A stretch of DNA of 53,253 bases from Fidelibacterota bacterium. Its GTDB lineage: Bacteria; Fidelibacterota; UBA8477; JABMPR01. The DNA is taken from positions 1 through 53,253 of the forward strand of contig JADHVL010000026.1 of NCBI GenBank assembly GCA_016784025.1, read 5' to 3'. The notes beneath the pieces are model-generated. The model had not been told where the DNA came from, did no database searches, and saw nothing but the letters and a program-made list of their open reading frames with translations. Positions 13,058-29,211 of the stretch are shown here, piece by piece (position 1 is the first letter of the stretch; each line of letters starts with the position of its first letter). The position numbers and the translations under genes were made by a program.

Positions 13058-14545
13058 TCAATCACCTATATACTGATCTATTGCTCCGACAATACTAAAT
13101 ATTTCTTCATTTTCAACCCGATAGGATGTATTCACGTAATCATTCTCTGAATTCAGCTCATAGTCCAGGGCATATGTCTCACCGTTTTGTATAATATCCC
13201 TGAGTGCGGCCATGAGTCGAGCCACATCCTCCAGGGTTGAATACAGTCCAAAACTGGCTCTCACCATCCCTGCTTTGCGCATAAATTCCGGGCTCATATT
13301 ACCAAAATCAATTTCCCCAAATTCAGCTTCCAGATCATCAGACATCATTTCCTTGACATATGGGTGAGCGCAAAAGCATTGATTCCTCACAGCAATATTG
13401 AAGTAGTCGTTTAACTGGGCGGCCACCAACCCATGGTCCATTCCTTTAATGTTAAAGGAAATTGAGGCAGCTCGTGGACAAGCTTTCAGGTCAGTGCCAC
13501 CATAGACCAGAATTTCTGGGATGCTAGCCATCTCATTAATGGCGGCTTCCAGAACTTCCTCTTCCTCTTCCATCAGTGTTTGCATACCGATACGATCAAG
13601 AATTTCAATTGTTGTAGCCAGGGCTATAGCGCCTGGAATATTGGGGGTGCCAGCTTCTTCTCGATCCGGAAATGTCTCTTTGACCTGGTAGCGATCTTCC
13701 AGGACTCGATCTACCATGCCTCCGCCAACCTCTTCAGGCTCAATGGCTAATAGGTGGTCTTTGCGGGCCACAACAACCCCAGGTGATCCCGGTGTGTAAG
13801 TTTTATGCCCAGAGAATACCAGAGCATCAATACAGGCGTCAGGATCATCAGGAAAAAACATTTTTGTGGGGAGATGAGCAACACTTTGGGCACCATCCAC
13901 CATGAGCAGGGCTCCATATTTATGGGCGAGGCGAGCCATATCATGAATGGGATTAATAATTCCCGTTACATTACTCACTGCGGTAATGGAGACATAACTA
14001 ACTCTACCAGCCCCATTCCGAAGTGCTTCCTCCAATTTGGGTAAACTGATACACATCTGATTTTCATCCAGACCATCGACGGGGACATGATATACATGCT
14101 TCATATGCTTTCGATGGGGCAAATCATTGGAGTGATGCTCCATGATTGATATGATTGCTGTATCTTTTTCAGGATGTACATCTCGGAAGACACGCGCCAT
14201 CCTGTTGATGCCCCCTGTGGTTCCAGAGCCAGTAAAGAAGCAGGTATAAATATCAGGATCTGCACCTACAAAGCTGAGTATCCTTTCATGAGCCCAATCG
14301 TAGGCAGCTGTGGAAATGTGGGCGGAATGATGGAGTTTACTATGGGTATTGGAGTAATGATTCATGAAGTCAGCCGTAATATGAGCTGCAGGTCTAAGCA
14401 TGAGTGAGCTGGCAGTTGAATCCAGATAAATTCGTCTGGTTTGCTCCCCTCCTACCGTCTGGTAGGTGGTATCTAAACCAATAAAGTCAGAACGAATTTT
14501 TTCGAGAAGTGCCTTGCCGGTTAAAGAATTTCCAGATGATCTCAT
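13058..14545 (-). CDS. Class V aminotransferase, cysteine desulfurase / selenocysteine lyase-like
   Basis: A 495-residue PLP enzyme of fold type I, class V. LDSTASSLMLRPAAH is the SufS/CsdB-like N-terminus, MEHHSNDLP the His stacking on PLP, MVDGAQSVAHLP the Asp/Gln pair, and SGHKTYTPGSPG holds the PLP lysine. RNQCFCAHPY is in the position of the desulfurase active-site loop and contains two Cys. The start at 14545 is preferred over an ATG 12 codons upstream because TGAGGAG lies 7 nt before it. It converges with the amidotransferase gene, only 3 nt apart. Sulfur or selenium mobilisation is plausible; isopenicillin-epimerase-like activity on another amine is the alternative. It lies next to two predicted selenoprotein genes, which may be chance. 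Confidence 0.8.
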   Translation of the reverse strand: MRSSGNSLTGKALLEKIRSDFIGLDTTYQTVGGEQTRRIYLDSTASSLMLRPAAHITADFMNHYSNTHSKLHHSAHISTAAYDWAHERILSFVGADPDIYTCFFTGSGTTGGINRMARVFRDVHPEKDTAIISIMEHHSNDLPHRKHMKHVYHVPVDGLDENQMCISLPKLEEALRNGAGRVSYVSITAVSNVTGIINPIHDMARLAHKYGALLMVDGAQSVAHLPTKMFFPDDPDACIDALVFSGHKTYTPGSPGVVVARKDHLLAIEPEEVGGGMVDRVLEDRYQVKETFPDREEAGTPNIPGAIALATTIEILDRIGMQTLMEEEEEVLEAAINEMASIPEILVYGGTDLKACPRAASISFNIKGMDHGLVAAQLNDYFNIAVRNQCFCAHPYVKEMMSDDLEAEFGEIDFGNMSPEFMRKAGMVRASFGLYSTLEDVARLMAALRDIIQNGETYALDYELNSENDYVNTSYRVENEEIFSIVGAIDQYIGD

Positions 14546-14624
14546 GCTAAAACTCCTCATTGATATCTCATGATTTGACACATAAAATGAACCAGTATAT
14601 ACTCAGGTCTAGCATATAATACCA

Positions 14625-14818: not shown

Positions 14819-14854
14819 AAAAAATCAGGAGGCCATCCAAATGGATGGCCTCCT
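14819..14854 (-). terminator. Rho-independent terminator of the first selenoprotein gene
   Basis: A perfect 12-bp stem AGGAGGCCATCC/GGATGGCCTCCT with a 4-nt loop, then GATTTTTTG on the minus strand, 25 nt past the TAG stop of 14879-17485. Its core GGCCATCC/GGATGGCC recurs in the terminator of the paralog at 17649-17680. Confidence 0.9.
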
Positions 14855-14878: not shown

Positions 14879-17485
14879 CTATTTAAGCAACATCATTTTT
14901 ACTATTTGCTCTGAGCCAGCAGCAGTTATACGGGCAAAATAGATACCTGTTTCTACCGATTTGGAAGAAGCATCAGTACCATTCCATTGATAGCGGTATG
15001 TGCCAGTTACAAGTTCCGACTGAACAAGGCTGTTCACCTCTTGACCCAGAATATCATAAATCATCAGGGTTACGAAACTATTGACAGGTATACCAAACTC
15101 AATGGTAGTCGAGGGATTGAAAGGATTGGGATAGTTCTGCTTCAATTGAAGCACTTCAGGCATTTCAAATCCATCAACACTGAGGAACTGACCAGTATAG
15201 AAACCGGTCCTCTGATTATTACCGCGGGCAGTTGACCAGGTAGGACCAAGCTCAGAGAGCATTTTAAGATTAATAACAGTGAGGTCATTATTTGACCCAA
15301 CGATGATCTCCAGAGTACCATCCTGACTTAAATCAGCCACACTTGGAGTTCCCTGGACAGGTCCTGACATTGCTAGTGGAAATAGATCCACGGACATGCC
15401 ATCATGATGGAAGGCATATAATTCTCCAGAGTTTGAGCCAACTATAATCTCTGGCGCACCTACACCATCAAGATCTGCAACAACGGGAGAACTATAACAG
15501 GCGCCATCTAGACTTTGCGGCCACCCTGCTACAGCATTCCCCTGATAATCAATCATATTGATGAGTCCAGCGAGAGTTGTATAAATAATTTCCATAAAAC
15601 CATCACCATCGAAATCATACACAGCTGCAGAGGTACGAATACTGGCAGATGAAAGTCTTTGAGTCCAAAGTACACTTCCATCGCTACCAATAGCATAGAA
15701 ATAGCCACCATCTTGACCGGCTAAAATTTCCAGTGAGCCGTCCCCATCAATGTCAGCAATGACAGGAGGAGAGGCAACATTGGAAACCAAATCTACTGGA
15801 AATCCACTTAACAAATCTCCATTAAGATTATAGGCGAATACGCTATCACTCCAGGTACCTAGGACGAGATCTTTGCTTCCGTCTCCATCAATATCTGCTA
15901 TGGAAACACCACCAGACATTCTTCCGCCGTCAATAATGACAGGATAATTATCCAGAGGAGTACCATCATGGTGAACAGCTACTAAATCATAACCATACCC
16001 ACCAGCGACTATTTCAAGGTCTCCGTCGTTGTCAAGGTCATCTAGAGCAGGTGTACCCATAAGATAGCTTGAAGCTTCTGTGATTGCGGCGCCTGTCCCA
16101 TCATGTTGGATGACATGAAGTTTGCGATCGCGGGAAGCCACTACAACTTCCAGATCACCATCATTGTCAATATCAGCAACAGCTGGAGCACCAATAATCA
16201 CATTCCCAGTGGCGTATGGAAAACCGGCCAACTCAGTGCCTGCCAGCGTAAAGACGTGAACAAGACTATCAGATCCACCCACCACCACTTCGTTGGTTCC
16301 ATCACCATCAAGATCCACAACTGCATTTCCACCTGTAATGGGTTGAGAAACAGCAACTGGGAAATTGGCTTGGAACAAATCGATGCTTACGGTGAGAGGA
16401 ATGATCGCTTCATAAGGATCCTCGGTGCTTTGATTGGCAACCATTCTAAGATTAAAATTAAAATCTGAGATATCTGGTGCATCTTCTGAAACCGAGAAAG
16501 CAAATTTGTCGTTGAAATTTGTGACAATATCGCAGGACACAATCATATTGTAAAATCCCACACTATCCGTAATGGTAATATATGGGCTTGATGTAGATAG
16601 ATAACCTGTCACATCAAAGGCGCTGACAAAATCACAACTATTGCTTACTGTCACTGTATACTCGGCTGATTCACCGGGATTCAGCTTACCATCACCATCA
16701 TCACCAACTATGATGATATTTGAGGAGGCGGCAACCAGATTTGGGATGTTGAGTGGTGCAATATCACCCACATACCCTGTAGAAGCATTTAGCACGGCTT
16801 GATCCGAACCCTGAACAAAGACAACCAGTCTACAATCATCTACAATAAAGGAAGGGTCAAGGAAGAAATCAACTACCTCCACGTGCTGAACGCCTGCCTC
16901 CAGGGCGACAGTTGTACCTGAGGAACTGGGAAACATATCCCGCATGACATTTTCGTGGTCTGGGTAGCCATTTGATCCCATATAATATAGTCCATCCTGG
17001 ACCAGAACGACTTGAAGGGTATAATTTCCACTAACTCCCTCTTCAGGGTCTAGCGTCACAAGTACACTTCCACTGAGAGTTTGATAGTCAAAATTGCCTG
17101 CCAGACTAATAGCAAGTGGTGCTGTAGTCTGTGCATTGGCTAAAATATGACTCTCCCAGGCCGTTGTACTGCCTCCGTCAGTAACACCATCAATTTCAAT
17201 CCATGGAACCCATTGAACATTATAATAGCCCTGTCTAGCTGTACCATCTGCGCTATTAAAATTGTAAAAAGGATCAGTACCCGGCCATGACATATGGTAG
17301 TTAATTTGGGTATGTGTTGTCGGATTATTTTGTTGAAACACGTTCAACTGAGCCCCTGCGGGGCCACAGGAAGGTCAGCCAGCGTTTGTGAAATATTCAG
17401 CTAAAACCAACCGTTCGGCAGAATGCCCCAACGCGAATAACGCAAGCAGTATCATCACTACTGTTGCGAATCTGTTTTTGATCAT
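14879..17485 (-). CDS. Predicted secreted selenoprotein: Omp28/thioredoxin-like domain (UxxC), FG-GAP repeats, sorting domain
   Basis: An 868-residue protein if the in-frame TGA at 17375-17377 is read as selenocysteine (codon 37). The ATG at 17485 has GGAG 5 nt upstream. Residues 1-22 are a signal peptide (MIKNRFATVVMILLALFALG, then HSA). The mature N-terminus RLVLAEYFTNAG-U-PSCGPAG has the redox motif U37-P-S-C40 where thioredoxin-like Omp28 relatives have CxxC. WVPWIEIDG (about residue 93) fits the cis-Pro strand. A beta-rich CARDB-like stretch follows, then eight FG-GAP/VCBS repeats with Ca-binding DxDxDGxxE loops (DLDGDGTNEV, DIDNDGDLEV and others), probably a propeller. The last 80 residues form a YPNPFNPS sorting domain ending MMLLK. 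Likely extracellular or surface-bound. A simple reading would begin after the TGA and miss the redox site and signal peptide. Confidence 0.85.
17352..17377 (-). promoter_or_regulatory. Sec UGA codon and candidate bacterial SECIS hairpin (first paralog)
   Basis: The UGA (17375-17377) is followed after 10 nt by GCCCC-GCA-GGGGC. The apical loop begins with G and starts 15 nt after the UGA, close to the spacing and loop rule reported for bacterial SECIS elements. The identical hairpin at identical spacing occurs in the paralog. The element lies within coding sequence. Confidence 0.7.
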
Positions 17486-17544
17486 AATCTCTCCAAGTTG
17501 AATTGTATTATGTGCCTATGTAAAGCATGCCATAACATAGATAA

Positions 17545-17578
17545 ACGAGGTGGCCTGTGCCACCACAAAGCTCCTCGT
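17545..17578 (-). other. Leader hairpin upstream of the first selenoprotein gene
   Basis: ACGAGG and CCTCGT pair around an inner GTGG/CCAC hairpin, 60 nt before the ATG at 17485. On the minus strand GCTTTGTGGTGGCACA then TTATCTATGTTA resembles the leader of the paralog (20386-20413 and following), so the duplication seems to include upstream sequence. Role unknown: promoter-proximal operator, leader, or a relic of an upstream terminator. Confidence 0.45.
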
Positions 17579-17648
17579 GAAAGAAACGTTAGTAAAAATT
17601 AATTTTACCATCCAAAATTGTTCATTCTTGAACCTTAGTATTGATACT

Positions 17649-17680
17649 AAAAAGAAGGCCATCCAATGGATGGCCTTCTT
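17649..17680 (-). terminator. Rho-independent terminator of the second selenoprotein gene
   Basis: A perfect 13-bp stem AAGAAGGCCATCC/GGATGGCCTTCTT with loop ATT, followed by TTT on the minus strand (five Ts in all), 20 nt past the gene end. Similar to the terminator at 14819-14854. Confidence 0.9.
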
Positions 17681-17700
17681 AGCTAAGATTGTGAGTTAAT

Positions 17701-20322
17701 TTATTTTAGCAGCATCATTTTTATGAGTTGTTCTTCTCCACCCGCCTGAATCCGGGCAAAATACACACCTGCAGCAACTTGATTGCCTGCATGATCCAAC
17801 CCACTCCAAACTAAAGAATAGTGCCCTGCTGAAAGATTTTTATCAATCAGGCGAGTCACTTGATTACCTAAGAGGTCAAAGATTGTTAAATCTGTAACTG
17901 AGCTAGTAGGAATCCCAAACTCAATAGTTGTACTGGGATTAAAGGGGTTGGGGTAATTCTGCTTTAAGGTCAGAATATCAGGCAGAATAGATTGTGAAGA
18001 TGAACTCGCAATGGGATTGGGGAAATATCCTGTCCGCTGGTAGTTCCCTCGTGATGTATACCAAAAGGGTCCGGCTTCACTTATTGCAGGCATATCCACA
18101 ACACTGAGGCCAGCGTCAGTCCCCACGACAATCTCCAGATTTCCATCCAGATCCAAATCTGCCACAGTTGCAGCACTATGCACTCTGTCTCCCTGTAGCA
18201 TTGGGAAATTAGGCAGAAGCGTCCCATCAATATGAAATGCATAGAGGTTATCTGAGTCATCCCCTAGTATTATTTCTGGAACATCATCTCCATCGATATC
18301 TGCGATAATCGGTTGACTGTAGCAGGTAGTTGCCAGAGTTTGTGGCCAACCCTCCAACATATTCCCGTCATGATCCAACACACTTACTCGACCATCAGGC
18401 AATATGTAGACTGTCTCCATGAGACCATCCCTATTATAATCAAAAACGGAATGACCCGTCAATACAGGAATGGCAACCAGTTGATGATTCCACAGCTCTG
18501 TACCAGTGCTGGACAGTGCGTAGATCATTCCACCCAATTGACCAGCGATAATTTCCAGGTTTCCATTTCCAGTCAAGTCAGTAACCACCGGCGCTGTTTT
18601 GATATCAGCTGATAGATTGACTGGGAATCCAGTCAAACTGTTACCACTTGCATCGTATGCATGTATAAAGTCACCAGTGGTGCCCACGATAATATCATTA
18701 AAGCCATCACCGTTCAAATCGGCAATTGCAGCTCCACCCTCCATCCTTTCACCATCCAGAATTAAAGGGAAACCTGACAGGGCGCTTCCATCATGATGAA
18801 TGGCAGTGATATCATAGTCAAATCCAGTGGTAACGATTTCCAAATCGCCATCATTGTCCAGATCATCTATAGCAGGGGTTCCCAGGACGAGCCCGGCGGC
18901 CTGGGCAACTAATTCACCGCTTCCATCAGACTCAACCACATATATACTTCCACCAAGGGTAGTAAATACAATTTCCAGGTCACCATCATTGTCCACATCT
19001 CCAATTGCAGGTGCGGACGTAATTTTACCATTTGAGACAAAGGGAAAACCTGACAATTCAAGCCCTGCCACCGTGATGACATGAAGTAGGCTATCAGTCC
19101 CGCCAAATATCACTTCTTGAGATCCATCACCATCTAGATCTAACACTGCATTTCCACTCACAATCCCAGACTCATAGTCAATGGGAAAATGATTTTGGAA
19201 CATATCAATGGTTACGGTGATAGTCTCATTCGTTTCATATGGAGTCTCGGAATCCTGGTTTGCAAGAATGCGTAAATTGAATTCAAATTCACTTACACGT
19301 GGGGCTTCTGATGAAACAGTGAATGTAAATTTATCTATTTCATTGCTTGTAGTACTACATGGAGAAAGTGAACTAAACACACCCACGCTATCACTAATAC
19401 TAATTAAAGGATTGGTGCTGGATAAATATCCAGTAATTCCAGTTGCTTCAACCCACCCACAATTGTTATCAATGGTCACATAATAATTAGCTGATTCACC
19501 TGGATTAAGCTTGTTGTCAGCGTTGTCATCAAACAGGTCGATATTTGTGGATAGTACCTGGATATATGGAACATTGATTGGGGTCAACTCAACCACATCA
19601 AATGTGGCGGTATTCAAGACTGATTGATCTGATGCCTCAACAAACACGACGAGACGGCAGTTGGCAACTACAAAATCCTGAGGTATTTGGAGATTGATGG
19701 TTTCAGTAATGTCGATACCAGCCACCATATTAATGGGTGTACCTGCTGGGCTGGGGAAGATATGGCGCATGACAGCTTCATGATGTGGATACCCGTTTGA
19801 TCCCATGAAGTAGATACCATCCTCAACCAGAACAACCTGGAGCGTATAGTCGCCGTCTACTCCAGCTTCAGGAGAAAGTGTTATATCAATGAAGCCCTCT
19901 CCCTGATAATTCATGTCACCCGTAGCGGATATGGAGAGGGGTGATGTTAAAGCAGCTTGATCCATGATGGCTGCTCCCCATACTGAAACGTCCTGGGTCT
20001 CATTCAGTGTCGCATGATCACCACCATCGACGACAAAATATGGCACCCAACTAAAACCGTAGTGTGCCCTGCGGGCATTCCCATCGGCACTACTATAGGT
20101 GTAGAATGGATCACTGCCTGGCCATGACATATGGTAGTGAATAGAGGTAAAAGCGGTTGGGTTATTTTGTTGGAACACGTCCAACTCTGCCCCTGCGGGG
20201 CCACAACCAGGTCAGCCAGCGTTTGTAAAATACTCTGCCAGGACGAGTCGTTCAGCTGTATGACCCAATGCGAATAGAGCCAACAGTACCATCAAAACTA
20301 TTGTCAGTCTGTTTTTCATCAT
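17701..20322 (-). CDS. Predicted secreted selenoprotein paralog: Omp28/thioredoxin-like domain (UxxC), FG-GAP repeats, sorting domain
   Basis: An 873-residue paralog of the next gene downstream, with the same architecture. The ATG at 20322 is preceded by GGAGAG. The signal peptide is MMKNRLTIVLMVLLALFALG then HTA. TGA at 20212-20214 is codon 37, the same position as in the paralog, giving AEYFTNAG-U-PGCGPAG with U37-P-G-C40. WVPYFVVDG supplies the cis-Pro strand. FG-GAP repeats such as DLDGDGSQEV, DVDNDGDLEI, DLNGDGFNDI, DLTGNGNLEI and DIDGDDVPEI follow. The end is a sorting domain (YPNPFNPS to MMLLK). That both copies keep TGA, with a Cys three residues on and divergent flanking codons, argues for selection rather than a chance nonsense mutation. 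It has its own terminator, so the two genes are separate transcription units. Confidence 0.85.
20189..20214 (-). promoter_or_regulatory. Sec UGA codon and candidate bacterial SECIS hairpin (second paralog)
   Basis: UGA at 20212-20214, a 10-nt spacer, then GCCCC-GCA-GGGGC, the same hairpin and spacing as at 17352-17377, although spacer bases and downstream codons differ. Confidence 0.7.
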
Positions 20323-20385
20323 AATCTCTCCATAAATTTTTGAAACTAATTGATCTATAAAACTGTTGACTAAGATAGATAAGCA

Positions 20386-20413
20386 AAGGGCTTTGTGCCA
20401 TCACAAAGCCCTT
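20386..20413. terminator. Perfect 12-bp hairpin between RND gene and selenoprotein gene
   Basis: AAGGGCTTTGTG/CACAAAGCCCTT with a 4-nt loop lies 43 nt after the RND stop codon and 64 nt before the selenoprotein start. It could terminate the efflux operon, though only a weak T-rich tail (TGCTTATC) follows on the minus strand. Part of it is shared with the leader of the paralog at 17545-17578. Confidence 0.5.
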
Positions 20414-20456
20414 CGTAAAACTTTTTTAATAAACTAAAATCTGATTGAAAAATCGA

Positions 20457-23400
20457 CTAGGCTGTGCGCTCCAATTTTTTTCTCTCTGCACGGCTCTCAA
20501 TGATGGAATACAAAACTGGAACCACGATGAGAGTCAGAAAGGAGGAAACTGCCAGACCAAAGATCAAACTAACCGCCAGGGGTCTCCAATATTCGGCTCC
20601 ACCTGCGAGATTCAAGCTTAAGGGAATCATACCTGCCAGCGTCGTAACTGTCGTGAGGATGATTGGACGTAGTCTGTTCCTGCCAGCTTTTATTAACGCT
20701 TCCCTTACCCGCATACCTGTCTTACGGAGATCGTTGACATAGGCGATAAGCACAATTGCATCATTTACCACCACTCCCATGAGAGCTACTACACCAAAAA
20801 AGGCCATAATACCAAATGGAACCCGTGTGACCATGAGACCAAAGATCACCCCAATAAATGATAGTGGAATAGCCAAACCAATAATCAGGGGCTGTTTGAT
20901 AGACTGGAATTGGGCACTGAGGATGATCATAATGACGATGAAACCTATAATCATGGCTTTACCAAGACTAGCAAACGATTTACCGGCTTCGTCTTCAATT
21001 CCACCATATTCCACACTTACACCGTTGGGAACTGCCAATTGAGCCAGGAAAGGATCCATACGACGTCGAATATCTGTTGCATCGACGCCCTTCGCCAGAT
21101 CGCAGGAGACTGAGATATTGCGCTTGAAATCCTGGTGTTTAATCAGAGTTTCACTGCTTCCCAGCTCCAGTGAAGCTACATTCTCAAAAGGTATCATCTG
21201 ACCCATTTGGTTCATGATGTTCAGATTCCGAATAGCATCTACAGCATCGTCACCATCTGTCTCCAGGCGAACCACAACTGGAATATCCTCAAGTCCATCC
21301 GAGTAGGTCGTAGCCTCCAGACCAATCATAGCTGCTGCCAGGGTGTTACTTATTTCCTGACTGGATAGTCCATAACTTGCAGCACGATCATGATCTACAA
21401 CGGCTTGAAATTCGGTTCTGCGGACACCCAAACTGGATTCCACATTCAGAGCTCCTTCAACGGTGGCCAGATCTCGTTTAACCTGTTCAGCAACAAAGCC
21501 AATGGCATCCAGATCATCACCACTGACGTCTATGATCACATTGCTGGCTATGGGTGGTCCTTCCACGATGGTCTGCAACACAATTTCAACACCTGGTATA
21601 CGGGAGAGTTTTGCATCCATGATGGCCATGAGATCATCAACGGAAATATCCCGGTCACCTGCGTCCACCAGATCCACATTTATCTGGCCTATTTCTGCGC
21701 CTTTTCCCCCTCCTTGAGCCAGACGTACATTCTGTACGCCACTCTCCCCAACCGTAGAGACAATTCGATCCACTTCAGCAAAGGTCAGGAGATATGCCTC
21801 TATATCCTTAACCACGGCATCTGTATAATCGAGTTGACTGCCTGCAGGGGTATTGATATCTACAATAATCCTGGGTTTCGCAACCTTGGGAAAGATTTCT
21901 AACTTCACAAGTTTGGTATCACTGACGGCAGAAATTCCAACCGCAGCAATGGACATAAAGAAAATGACTGTGATTCCCAATATAACGATGAGTCTATGGT
22001 ATAGAGCCCAGCCAACCATCTTAGTATATAGACGCTTACCGATCCATTCACCACTTAGCACGCCAGCTCGTTTCGTGACCACCATCAATTTGGAGGCCAG
22101 AACTGGTATAAGAAAGTGATCTGCCAGGAATGCTCCCACCAGAGTAAATATCACGACTTTAGGAATCACAGATAAAAACTGACCCATGGTCCCCGTCATA
22201 TAAATTATGGGTGCAAAGGCCACCATGGTGGTCAATACTGAAGTCATAATTGGGACACCCACCTCATCAAGTGCTTTAATGGCTGCCGCCTTCCGATCCA
22301 AACCTTCTTCCATATGCCGATAGGTTGATTCGGCCACGATAATGGCACCATCCACAACAATACCTAAAACGATAATGAGACCAAACATGGAAATACCTGT
22401 CCGTGCCAGATCAAAGACAGCCATCAGAGGGAAGGAAGACATGAGTGCAAAGGGCAGTGCAATGGATACGATCAGGGCATTCTTGAACCCTATTCCAGCA
22501 AACAGCACAATGATAACAAACAAAATCCCCCAGGCAGCGTTCTGATTCAGCTGACTATTCTGCCTTTCAATATCTGTGGCCTGTCTGGCCGTGTAAGCAT
22601 ATTCCATCCCCTGAGGAAATTTTGCAGCGAGTTTGTCCACAACTGCTTCGATCTGCTCAGTGGCCTCCACTATGTGGGCACCGGTTCTTTTTGAAATAAG
22701 CAAGGTCACGCTATTTTGTTGCTGGAATCTGGAGTAGCTGGAAGGGATTTCAAATCCATCGGTAACCGTCCCAACATCACGAATACGTTTCACATTTCCT
22801 GATTGATCTACGCCGAGAATAGTGTTCTCTATATCGTCGATCTCAGAATACTTACCCACAGTCCGAACAAATATATCCTGTCCCTTGAGTTTTACAGTAC
22901 CACCAGGAAAGTTCATATTGCTCTTTCTCAGAGCCATCAATACCTGGGGGATACTGAGATTATTGGCCAGGAGCAGATCTGGGTCAATTTCAATGGCTAT
23001 TTCGCGCTCTTCTCCACCAAACATTTCAACCTGATTCACTCCCGATACTCTGGTAAGTTGATCTTTAATAAGTTCAGCCTGAATCCGCAAATCGTGAGGT
23101 GAATAATCTCCATAGATATTTAGGATGCTGATGGGTGTATCGGCAAAATCAATATCCGTTACCGTCACATTATCTATCTCTTCTCTCAGTTCGGGTATGG
23201 CTTCGTTAACTTTCTCCTTGAGATCATCAATACTTAAATCCAGATCAGCCTCTGGCGAAAACTTGATGGTGATAAAACCAACATTCTGCATGGCATATCC
23301 GGTGATATCATCAACATCCTGCAATTGAGCCAGTTTCTCTTCAATGGGTTTGATAATCTCAGTTTCCACTTCAGAAGGCGCAGCTCCCACATAGGTCGCT

Positions 23401-23543
23401 GAAACAAAAGCATACGGGATTTCGATGACGGGAACCAACTCCAGGGGAAGCGTCAAATATGCTGTAATACTGGCAATAAAAATTCCCAGGGCTGCAAATA
23501 TGACGGCCATGGGATGCTGGATGGCCTGTTTTGATATTTTCAT
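20457..23543 (-). CDS. RND-family efflux transporter permease
   Basis: A 1028-residue inner-membrane RND pump of the AcrB/MdtB class, driving proton-coupled export through a tripartite complex. The N-terminus IQHPMAVIFAALGIFIASI is the first transmembrane helix, followed by porter-domain sequence with YVGAAPSEVETEIIKPIEE. The second half repeats the fold (GLSSQEISNTLAAAMIG; final helices GVVVNDAIVLIAYVNDLRKTG and NRLRPIILTTVTTLAGMIPL). In TM4 the usual Asp-Asp pair is read as VVDGAIIVAES, so only one Asp is kept. It is the last gene of the TetR-TolC-MFP-RND operon, 14 nt after the adaptor gene. Substrate range cannot be told from sequence. Confidence 0.95.
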   Translation of the reverse strand: MKISKQAIQHPMAVIFAALGIFIASITAYLTLPLELVPVIEIPYAFVSATYVGAAPSEVETEIIKPIEEKLAQLQDVDDITGYAMQNVGFITIKFSPEADLDLSIDDLKEKVNEAIPELREEIDNVTVTDIDFADTPISILNIYGDYSPHDLRIQAELIKDQLTRVSGVNQVEMFGGEEREIAIEIDPDLLLANNLSIPQVLMALRKSNMNFPGGTVKLKGQDIFVRTVGKYSEIDDIENTILGVDQSGNVKRIRDVGTVTDGFEIPSSYSRFQQQNSVTLLISKRTGAHIVEATEQIEAVVDKLAAKFPQGMEYAYTARQATDIERQNSQLNQNAAWGILFVIIVLFAGIGFKNALIVSIALPFALMSSFPLMAVFDLARTGISMFGLIIVLGIVVDGAIIVAESTYRHMEEGLDRKAAAIKALDEVGVPIMTSVLTTMVAFAPIIYMTGTMGQFLSVIPKVVIFTLVGAFLADHFLIPVLASKLMVVTKRAGVLSGEWIGKRLYTKMVGWALYHRLIVILGITVIFFMSIAAVGISAVSDTKLVKLEIFPKVAKPRIIVDINTPAGSQLDYTDAVVKDIEAYLLTFAEVDRIVSTVGESGVQNVRLAQGGGKGAEIGQINVDLVDAGDRDISVDDLMAIMDAKLSRIPGVEIVLQTIVEGPPIASNVIIDVSGDDLDAIGFVAEQVKRDLATVEGALNVESSLGVRRTEFQAVVDHDRAASYGLSSQEISNTLAAAMIGLEATTYSDGLEDIPVVVRLETDGDDAVDAIRNLNIMNQMGQMIPFENVASLELGSSETLIKHQDFKRNISVSCDLAKGVDATDIRRRMDPFLAQLAVPNGVSVEYGGIEDEAGKSFASLGKAMIIGFIVIMIILSAQFQSIKQPLIIGLAIPLSFIGVIFGLMVTRVPFGIMAFFGVVALMGVVVNDAIVLIAYVNDLRKTGMRVREALIKAGRNRLRPIILTTVTTLAGMIPLSLNLAGGAEYWRPLAVSLIFGLAVSSFLTLIVVPVLYSIIESRAERKKLERTA

Positions 23544-27795: not shown

Positions 27796-29211
27796 ATGCT
27801 TGATACCCGTCGGCAAGCCAGGCGACTACTCGGCAAATTAGAAATTTCCTCCACGAGGCGCTTGGTGAAAATGATTTGCGCTGCACTTTTTGCAGCTATG
27901 ATCGCCTTCATCCCCTCATATTCCGGTTTAGAACCAGCTGCTATGTGGACACTCTTTATCCTCATCTTTGCGGCAGGCTTATGGATGACAGAGGCTATTC
28001 CTGCATTTGCCGTTGCCATCCTCATCATTGGTCTGGAAATTCTCATATTAGGTCAACCTGGTGGTGTGTATGCCACGGGTCCCAAGGATTGGCAGATGTT
28101 TGTAAATCCCTGGGCCAGTCCTATCATGTGGCTCTTTATGGGTGGCTTTGTTTTGGGCCAGGCGGCTCAAACCACTGGTCTCGACAGAATGATGGCTCGA
28201 TTTGTTCTAAAATGGTTTGGATCAAGACCCTCCAATGTGCTGCTGGGAGCCATGGGATTGACCTTTGTGTTTTCTATGTTTATGTCTAACACGGCTACTA
28301 CAGCAATGATGATGTCAGTTATGGCACCAGTCATTGCCGGGATCGATAAAAAAGATCCCTTTGTCAAGGCCCTGTTACTCGGTGTCCCCTTCGCGGCCAA
28401 TGTGGGTGGTATGGGAACCATCATTGGGAGTCCACCTAATGCCATTGCCGCAGGTTTGCTCAGTGAGACCCATGCCATTAGTTTTGTTGAATGGATGACT
28501 TTGGGCCTCCCCCCAGCCATCGTGCTATTTTTTATTGCCTGGCTCTATTTACGATTCGCACATCCATCGAATTCTGAGACGCTTGATCTCCGTGGACTGG
28601 AATGGGAAACCAGAACGGGTTCCTTGCTTCCCATGTGGAAACGTCTTCTGGTATTCCCTGTTTTCATGCTGACTGTCATATTGTGGATGACTGGCTCGAT
28701 ACACGGCATGCCCACGGCAGTCGTCTCATTTATTCCCATCACAATTTTTGCAGTAACTGGTATCCTGAATGTTGCTGAAGTTCGCCGTCTCCAATGGGAT
28801 GTGCTGATGCTCATGGCAGGCGGATTGTCTCTGGGTGTGGCCATTCAAATCAGTGGTCTTGCCACCTGGGTGCTGGGTCTCATCCCCATGGATGCTATGG
28901 GTTTGCTGGCCATCGCCTTTGTATTGGCTTATATCACCACCTTGTTGTCAAATTTTATGAGCAATACAGCCGCCACGAATATCCTTGCTCCTCTGGGTAT
29001 CGCCGTTGCAGTTGGTTTTGAACCCATCGTAGTCGTTCCGTTAGCCCTGGGCGCCTCAGCAGCCATGTGTTTGCCCATCTCCACACCTCCCAATGCCATT
29101 GCATTTGCCACTGGAGGTATGAAAACCACAGATTTTTTTAGAGGAGGTTTGTTAATGGGGATACTTGGTCCTGCCCTGGCAGTCATCTGGGTATTCTGGA
29201 TGTTAGGATAG
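27796..29211 (+). CDS. DASS/SLC13-family sodium:carboxylate (or sulfate) symporter
   Basis: A 471-residue inner-membrane transporter with roughly a dozen hydrophobic segments. The two DASS signature repeats are present: MSNTATTAMMM and GSPPNAIAAG in the first half, MSNTAATNILAP and STPPNAIAFATGG in the second, the Ser-Asn-Thr motifs that bind sodium and substrate. WMTEAIPAFAVAILI is the typical early DASS block. It likely imports dicarboxylates with sodium; sulfate or phosphate cannot be excluded. It follows the deacetylase-like gene by 82 bp, with a palindrome between. Confidence 0.93.
   Translation: MLDTRRQARRLLGKLEISSTRRLVKMICAALFAAMIAFIPSYSGLEPAAMWTLFILIFAAGLWMTEAIPAFAVAILIIGLEILILGQPGGVYATGPKDWQMFVNPWASPIMWLFMGGFVLGQAAQTTGLDRMMARFVLKWFGSRPSNVLLGAMGLTFVFSMFMSNTATTAMMMSVMAPVIAGIDKKDPFVKALLLGVPFAANVGGMGTIIGSPPNAIAAGLLSETHAISFVEWMTLGLPPAIVLFFIAWLYLRFAHPSNSETLDLRGLEWETRTGSLLPMWKRLLVFPVFMLTVILWMTGSIHGMPTAVVSFIPITIFAVTGILNVAEVRRLQWDVLMLMAGGLSLGVAIQISGLATWVLGLIPMDAMGLLAIAFVLAYITTLLSNFMSNTAATNILAPLGIAVAVGFEPIVVVPLALGASAAMCLPISTPPNAIAFATGGMKTTDFFRGGLLMGILGPALAVIWVFWMLG

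Follow-up and report, generated by a model that had tools for sequence, protein, structure and literature searches.

A tandem pair of predicted surface selenoproteins with Omp28-like heads in a Fidelibacterota bacterium

Two adjacent genes of a Fidelibacterota bacterium, hereafter copy A and copy B, each carry an in-frame TGA near their start, and raise the question of whether this codon ends translation or is read as selenocysteine (Sec), and what the resulting protein would do. They lie on contig JADHVL010000026.1 of assembly GCA_016784025.1, a 3.5-Mb draft genome of 47 contigs that is 86% complete; the whole stretch of this contig that was analysed, positions 1 to 53,253, is referred to as the window. 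We conclude that codon 37 of both genes is most likely decoded as Sec by the genome's own set of tRNA-Sec, SelA, SelB and SelD. That this decoding yields a predicted cell-surface thiol-disulfide oxidoreductase exported by the type IX secretion system (T9SS) is, as a whole, likely.

A preliminary description of the pair had reported a good ribosome binding site, a signal peptide, a TGA at codon 37 and a reading of more than 800 codons beyond it, all of which were confirmed (Table 1). GGAGAG is found at −9 to −4 of each ATG, residues 1–23 look like a signal peptide by inspection in both copies, and each gene has a single TGA and no TAA or TAG across its 868 (copy A) or 873 (copy B) codons. The sites U-P-S-C and U-P-G-C were said to have Sec in place of the first Cys of a redox pair, and codon 37 does align with a Cys of homologues. 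The two copies are 51% identical and the UxxC block is kept in both, which, with the selection on codons 1–36 described below, agrees with the earlier argument that its conservation goes beyond chance.

Homologous sites from relatives held 40 TGA and 26 Cys codons and nothing else among 66 read, with the frame unshifted, as the preliminary description had proposed to check. These sites came from 60 regions (one of them from the same genome) with 67 homologous segments, 66 of which reach the site; the segment left out, the downstream part of locus L075, stops short of it. The totals are lower bounds, as the UGA list draws on the matches listed, without the weakest, and the 60 regions were picked for matches spanning the head. 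The motif script sought C/U-x-x-C, and all 66 sites gave one at the aligned position. Most named loci that carry this head come from Candidatus Neomarinimicrobiota bins, and the closest is 95% identical over 250 residues. TGA was found in 18 of 20 named loci (16 titled Neomarinimicrobiota or Marinimicrobia, two 'bacterium' only), many of them contigs already in the 66-site set, and the named loci with Cys are from Zixibacteria and Ignavibacteria. The TGA is present, single and in frame at the Cys position in all 20 aligned long-form genes, which were selected as TGA-bearing. Ahead of it, codons 1–36 have a pooled ratio of nonsynonymous to synonymous change (pN/pS) of 0.116 (11 pairs), lower than the regions past codon 52 (0.18–0.22), and thus the frame ahead of the TGA encodes protein. 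The genome also has a 421-aa lipoprotein-like paralogue (L103:3564-4829, on G000:C31) whose C-terminal part is a head of this kind with Cys at the site (CVNC), so that Sec and Cys versions occur inside one genome. This paralogue was excluded from the Cys alignment (25 Cys rows) and its site was read separately.

The search for selA, selB, selC and selD suggested in the preliminary description found all four in the genome, selC being a tRNA-Sec with anticodon TCA. Across the phylum, SelB (PF09107) was detected in 175 of 245 genomes: in 28 of the 31 with UGA read at the site versus 147 of the 214 others (Fisher p 0.011, a test that ignores kinship, and some of the 214 may carry UGA copies outside the matches listed). 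The SelD gene of the same genome (G000:C42:55748-56671, L011) is itself a predicted selenoprotein gene, with an in-frame TGA in the context AAGUAGKIG.

A distal (apical) hairpin downstream of the UGA is the predicted selenocysteine insertion sequence (SECIS). Its 6-bp stem closes a loop that begins 32 nt past the UGA and reads CGUGU in 18 of the 28 near UGA rows, with other sequences in 10. Covariation was tested in these 28 near rows of 42 UGA sites, and the 14 distant sites were scanned for the best stem only. The stem was paired in 162 of 162 cells (27 distinct rows), and both sides had changed at four of the six pairs (24 cells). None of 500 shuffles matched it on four of five measures, and 284 of 500 did on the number of pair types; sliding the alignment by 1–3 columns reduced the pairing to 18–64%. 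In the 25 Cys rows, pairing was 55.3%, with nothing above shuffles. Synonymous change is nearly frozen over codons 38–52, at 12 of 153 same-residue comparisons versus 2914 of 7106 for codons 53–873 and 108 of 339 for codons 1–36, and the ten lowest of 858 15-codon segments start at codons 33–42; the pairs compared are not independent, hence no p-value is given. A published bacterial SECIS model has a loop of 3–9 nt, a stem of 4–16 bp, a distance of 16–37 nt from the UGA, a G in the first two loop bases and a free energy of −7.5 kcal/mol or lower (PMC13188914). The distal hairpin fits this geometry, with its 5-nt loop, 6-bp stem, G at loop base 2 and 32-nt distance.

Between the UGA and the distal hairpin lies a GC-rich proximal hairpin, whose loop begins about 15 nt past the UGA. 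It is paired in 91.9% of cells among near rows, with two cells changed on both sides, and the expected early G is found in 20 of 28 rows (hand count) and absent in eight. The distal hairpin is preferred as the SECIS because covariation of the proximal one is weak and the early loop G is absent in those eight rows. The two may act together, and the proximal hairpin may be left over from an older element or still function as part of it; jointly they reach −14.2 (copy A) and −14.9 (copy B) kcal/mol. At the 14 distant UGA sites (L086–L099, families f17, f18 and f21), the best near hairpin has its loop 15–19 nt after the UGA (19 in L096). These loops are often GGA or GUU, and the sites read UPGC, UPYC, UPSC or UGPC. 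In the SelD gene of the same genome, the folded hairpin has its loop about 20 nt past the UGA, unlike the distal hairpin of the Omp28 pair. Searched with a covariance model of this stretch (R1), the genome gave both window sites. A third match (E 0.47), which begins with TGA and reads UHFC, was dropped because its frame has three further TGAs shortly ahead of the match and ends 18 codons on, and because it is antisense to a 313-codon open reading frame (ORF).

What would the full-length products look like? The preliminary description had given them an Omp28/thioredoxin-like part, FG-GAP repeats and a sorting domain, and for the most part the domain models agree. Omp28 (PF11551) scored 56.9 (A) and 64.3 (B) bits, above the Pfam gathering score of 34.9, FG-GAP matches likewise exceeded their cut-off, and the TIGR04183 sorting model was over its cut-off in both copies; the PF18962 sorting model, with a cut-off of 27, gave 28.0 bits for copy A and fell just short in copy B at 26.3. 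The Pfam Omp28 match begins at residue 85–86, past the redox site, where alignment and model place U-x-x-C ahead of a helix and a conserved proline (P94) past the second helix. Modelled alone, the 250-residue head of copy B gave a thioredoxin-like lobe and a beta-sandwich with a mean predicted local distance difference test score (pLDDT) of 88.6. The full-length model has a good propeller. Taken together, the models predict a two-lobed head of the HBP35 type, then an eight-bladed propeller. Five UGA-bearing short forms (L080, L081, L082, L083 and L084; 304–308 aa) have the same head and distal hairpin and end in a dockerin-like repeat pair, recognised by eye, in place of the propeller and T9SS tail; Dockerin_1 scored 17.4 bits in L082, below its cut-off of 22.9.

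The sorting tails point to T9SS type A cargo, since TIGR04183 is over its cut-off in both copies and the genome has a PorU sortase gene (679.4 bits versus a curated cut-off of 420). Copy B matches 136 places in its own genome, nearly all over the tail only. Beyond the tail, its body is also found in a T9SS subtilase of the same genome (G000:C1:79286-81151, L016, PF00082), with the same immunoglobulin-like, FG-GAP and T9SS parts at 37% identity over residues 249–873 and no stop within the match; this protein differs in having a Peptidase_S8 head (126.7 bits) instead of the selenothioredoxin head. The shared body is therefore best seen as a display body, and the head as a module.

The interpretation of the genes as selenoprotein genes is thus supported, but the broad kind is already known. 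The family was identified as 'hypothetical protein GOS_C' among seven new selenoprotein families (Zhang and Gladyshev 2008, PMC2398784); it then counted 74 UGA sequences and was described with a thioredoxin-like fold and UxxC. It is NCBIfam NF045500, 'Omp28-related selenoprotein'; a 2026 review lists GOS_C under this accession (PMC13188914). The window copies share with it the Omp28/thioredoxin-like head and U-x-x-C in place of CxxC, but score 36.5 and 21.2 bits, below the cut-off of 200. Scores of nine scanned relatives run from 22.1 to 309.5 bits, and thus a continuum joins the window copies to the family, of which they are a divergent branch. The preliminary description had also called the architecture unusual. 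It does also occur outside this branch: L096, of the same phylum, scores 309.5 bits, above the family cut-off, and likewise combines FG-GAP repeats with a T9SS tail. What sets the window copies apart is the tandem arrangement and the hairpin loop at 32 nt rather than at the 15–19 nt of the 14 distant sites.

The nearest solved fold to the head is HBP35 of Porphyromonas gingivalis (PDB 5y1a), which shares the two-lobed fold. It has two cysteines (C48 and C51) and binds hemin, whereas the window proteins carry U-x-x-C, and at 344 aa it would have no room for a propeller; the pairing of U37 with C48 is based on how the fold elements are ordered rather than on an alignment of residues. HBP35 reduces insulin and loses this activity if both C48 and C51 are altered, while its hemin binding resides in a region independent of these cysteines (PMC2907840). 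It gets to the cell surface via the Por (type IX) system (PMC3120885). Omp28 of the same species (PF11551, PDB 2r2c) is a solved domain that matches, by profile, mainly the part past the thioredoxin lobe (residues 105–240).

These observations can be joined into a mechanism, of which the UGA, the Cys match, the covarying hairpin, the machinery genes, the domains and the PorU-type sortase gene come from sequence, the HBP35-fold head and eight-bladed propeller from structure prediction, and the steps of action from inference. SelB bound to the hairpin would bring about Sec insertion, the signal peptide and T9SS tail would take the protein across both membranes, and the sortase would cut off the tail and anchor the protein at the surface. 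In this position, the Sec and Cys of the active site, which would lie about 14 residues into the mature protein, could act as the two cysteines of HBP35 do and swap disulfides with proteins or small thiols outside the cell, and the propeller may bind a partner or matrix. The simplest view would be HBP35 chemistry with Sec replacing the first, attacking Cys. As in selenoenzymes generally, Sec would speed the attack and make the site easier to regenerate after over-oxidation.

Several results weigh against this view. The head structure rests on the separate 250-residue model because the full-length model fails in the head (pLDDT below 50 for residues 1–125). The C/U-x-x-C script was biased towards TGA and Cys outcomes, and neither the Fisher test nor the shuffles take account of relatedness. 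SelB was not seen in three of the 31 UGA genomes, the drafts G225, G238 and G074 (about 86, 90 and 67% complete). A Cys version of the FG-GAP long form was not found among the relatives examined, and those Cys-bearing relatives longer than 600 aa that were scanned (L102, L122 and L123) gave no FG-GAP match. For the RNA, the apical hairpin alone has −3.0 (A) and −5.4 (B) kcal/mol, above the −7.5 limit. Single-sequence folds of the 60 nt after the UGA were no better than shuffles (z −0.90 for A and −0.98 for B), nor were those of 43 nt, which cut the hairpin (z −1.02 for A and +1.28 for B); the region stood out in the alignment only. The absence of the hairpin in Cys homologues is a loose control, because these belong to other subfamilies at about 25–35% identity, and the proximal hairpin could itself be, or belong to, the true SECIS.

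Could the UGA be a true stop, with a 36-residue peptide and a separate protein from a downstream TTG or ATG, as gene callers draw it? TGA does end five of 33 window ORFs (hand-picked from the 47 listed), the TetR gene included, as the preliminary description had held for normal stops here, and all 48 head-region relatives among the 120 listed proteins were modelled from downstream starts. Such a downstream product would, however, lack a signal peptide yet keep a T9SS tail and secreted-type domains, and codons 1–36 are under purifying selection in the same frame as the UGA that aligns with Cys and is followed by a covarying hairpin. Given the selection, the Cys alignment, the hairpin and the orphaned tail, stop plus reinitiation was rejected as very improbable. 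A changed code or suppressor tRNA that reads UGA as Trp or Cys would also yield one long frame, but the same five ORFs stop at TGA, each of the 20 long forms has one in-frame TGA, at the Cys position, and the tRNA-Sec of this genome bears the anticodon TCA. This explanation, the remotest of those considered, was rejected as well.

Other alternatives accept the Sec and differ on its use. The head may serve at the surface as a peroxidase, or as a redox site that binds haem or a metal, with Sec acting on peroxide, sulfur species or a metal; Sec occurs in peroxidatic and metal-binding sites too (PMC13188914), and HBP35 also binds hemin. We regard this as unlikely, as U-x-x-C before a helix with the conserved P94 is the layout of a thiol-disulfide oxidoreductase, and HBP35 loses insulin reduction once both Cys are changed (PMC2907840). 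It is quite improbable that the proteins are selenoproteins kept in the periplasm or outer membrane, their tail being no working T9SS signal in this phylum. The modest tail scores (33–35 bits, with PF18962 under its cut-off in copy B) and the lipoprotein-like head relative without such a tail would fit, but the tail recurs at most of the 136 matching places and the PorU sortase is over its curated cut-off. Sec-dependent thiol-disulfide exchange at the cell surface remains the preferred explanation.

Table 1 Coordinates of predicted features of the tandem pair in the window.
Feature	Position	Strand	Basis or detail
Copy A predicted selenoprotein gene	14879..17485	−	868 aa; ATG at 17485; TGA codon 37; stop TAG 14881-14879
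Copy B predicted selenoprotein gene	17701..20322	−	873 aa; ATG at 20322; TGA codon 37; stop TAA 17703-17701
Copy A TGA codon 37, predicted Sec, U-P-S-C	17375..17377	−	sequence
Copy B TGA codon 37, predicted Sec, U-P-G-C	20212..20214	−	sequence
Copy A ribosome binding site GGAGAG	17489..17494	−	sequence; −9 to −4 of ATG
Copy B ribosome binding site GGAGAG	20326..20331	−	sequence; −9 to −4 of ATG
Copy A proximal GC-rich hairpin GCCCC-GCA-GGGGC, between UGA and distal hairpin	17352..17364	−	91.9% of cells paired, weak covariation
Copy B proximal GC-rich hairpin GCCCC-GCA-GGGGC, between UGA and distal hairpin	20189..20201	−	91.9% of cells paired, weak covariation
Copy A predicted SECIS apical hairpin GUUGAA-CGUGU-UUCAAC	17332..17348	−	covariation; fold; synonymous freeze
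Copy B predicted SECIS apical hairpin GUUGGA-CGUGU-UCCAAC	20169..20185	−	covariation; fold; synonymous freeze
Copy A signal peptide, residues 1-23	17417..17485	−	inspection; hydrophobic helix 3-19 in copy B model
Copy B signal peptide, residues 1-23	20254..20322	−	inspection; hydrophobic helix 3-19 in model
Copy A head, thioredoxin-like lobe with UxxC and Omp28 beta-sandwich, about residues 24-245	16751..17416	−	Pfam Omp28; alignment
Copy B head, thioredoxin-like lobe with UxxC and Omp28 beta-sandwich, residues 24-250	19573..20253	−	Pfam; model; HBP35-like fold
Copy A FG-GAP beta-propeller, about residues 376-740	15266..16360	−	Pfam FG-GAP_3, 5 stretches
Copy B FG-GAP beta-propeller, about residues 381-745	18088..19182	−	Pfam; structure model; Foldseek
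Copy A T9SS type A sorting tail, about residues 783-868	14882..15139	−	TIGR04183 33.2 bits, cut-off 23
Copy B T9SS type A sorting tail, about residues 788-873	17704..17961	−	TIGR04183 34.7 bits, cut-off 23
Terminator-like hairpin 3' of copy A	14827..14854	−	consensus scan
Terminator-like hairpin 3' of copy B	17652..17680	−	consensus scan
Terminator-like hairpin between upstream pump gene and copy B	20384..20415	−	consensus scan

The pair is flanked on the minus strand by an AcrB-type pump gene (20457-23543) and a class V aminotransferase gene (13058-14581). Terminator-like hairpins follow each copy and the pump gene (the consensus scan gave nine versus 4.6 expected in shuffles), so each copy probably has its own transcript. 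In the same genus, the gene or pair adjoins the pump and/or aminotransferase gene in 15 of 15 long-form loci (L064–L078), two of which are second contigs of genomes already in the count; these neighbours were not found at the other-genus locus L079 nor at the five short-form loci. In a tree of 20 long forms, six B copies form one clade (100/100) and seven A copies another (100/99), with S_L070, from a genome in which one copy was found, as sister to the A clade (100/99). On this tree, the duplication predates several species. One relative (L075:8336-8617 and beyond, G236) has an in-frame TAG 57 codons past the UGA and is a decayed gene or an assembly error.

Elsewhere in the window, a scan, judged by eye, for frames of 150 codons or more that read through no more than two TGAs gave no further UxxC context beyond the pair and a UDDC in a 163-codon, two-TGA frame (28552-29040, minus strand). 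This frame is antisense to the ORF at 27796-29211 and is probably a chance shadow frame. Rfam at gathering thresholds detected four tRNAs and nothing else in the whole window, clustered at the contig end (193-617; Thr, Gly, Tyr and Thr).

The public protein models found for close relatives of these genes are truncated. None of the 48 head-region relatives reaches residue 37, and all start downstream of the UGA, so the signal peptide and active site are missing from their models. These 48 are the proteins that match from within the long-form head among 120 listed from a collection of 5.8 billion, and two of them (P0003 and P0023) are encoded by the window itself. Two have telling names (VCBS-repeat and FG-GAP-repeat protein), a few are called 'hypothetical protein' and most are nameless.

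Literature searches found no work joining selenoproteins with Omp28, and only unrelated work, by title and abstract start, on selenoproteins with type IX secretion or FG-GAP. For Marinimicrobia with selenocysteine, titles and abstract starts held nothing on these proteins, nor did the titles of the works listed in a broader search on selenoproteins, Marinimicrobia and SAR406. Among the works listed for GOS_C, PMC9312934, PMC2398784 and PMC13188914 deal with prokaryotic selenoproteins. The last of these, the 2026 review, does not mention FG-GAP, type IX or Omp28, and no stated function for the GOS_C/NF045500 family was found in the literature examined. The surface-export reading, the HBP35 link, the tandem branch and the hairpin position thus seem to be unrecorded so far in the literature searched.

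Whether the pair belongs to a Neomarinimicrobiota lineage of T9SS-displayed selenothioredoxins is, in our estimate, evenly balanced. Such proteins would carry a redox head on a display body shared with a protease and perform extracellular disulfide chemistry on other cells, particles or matrix. Their SECIS would have shifted between subfamilies, its loop lying 32 nt past the UGA here, 15–19 nt past it in sister groups and 20 nt past it in the genome's own SelD, with a second conserved hairpin sitting in the space between. Together with the covarying hairpin, the alignment of UGA and Cys sites forms a clean set with which to correct protein models and to study shifts of SECIS position in bacteria. 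The fold match to HBP35 provides the GOS_C family with a function that can be tested, namely thiol-disulfide exchange at the cell surface. As Sec is both costly and prone to oxidation, a lineage that exports it to its outer surface would be informative on the use of Sec outside the cell.

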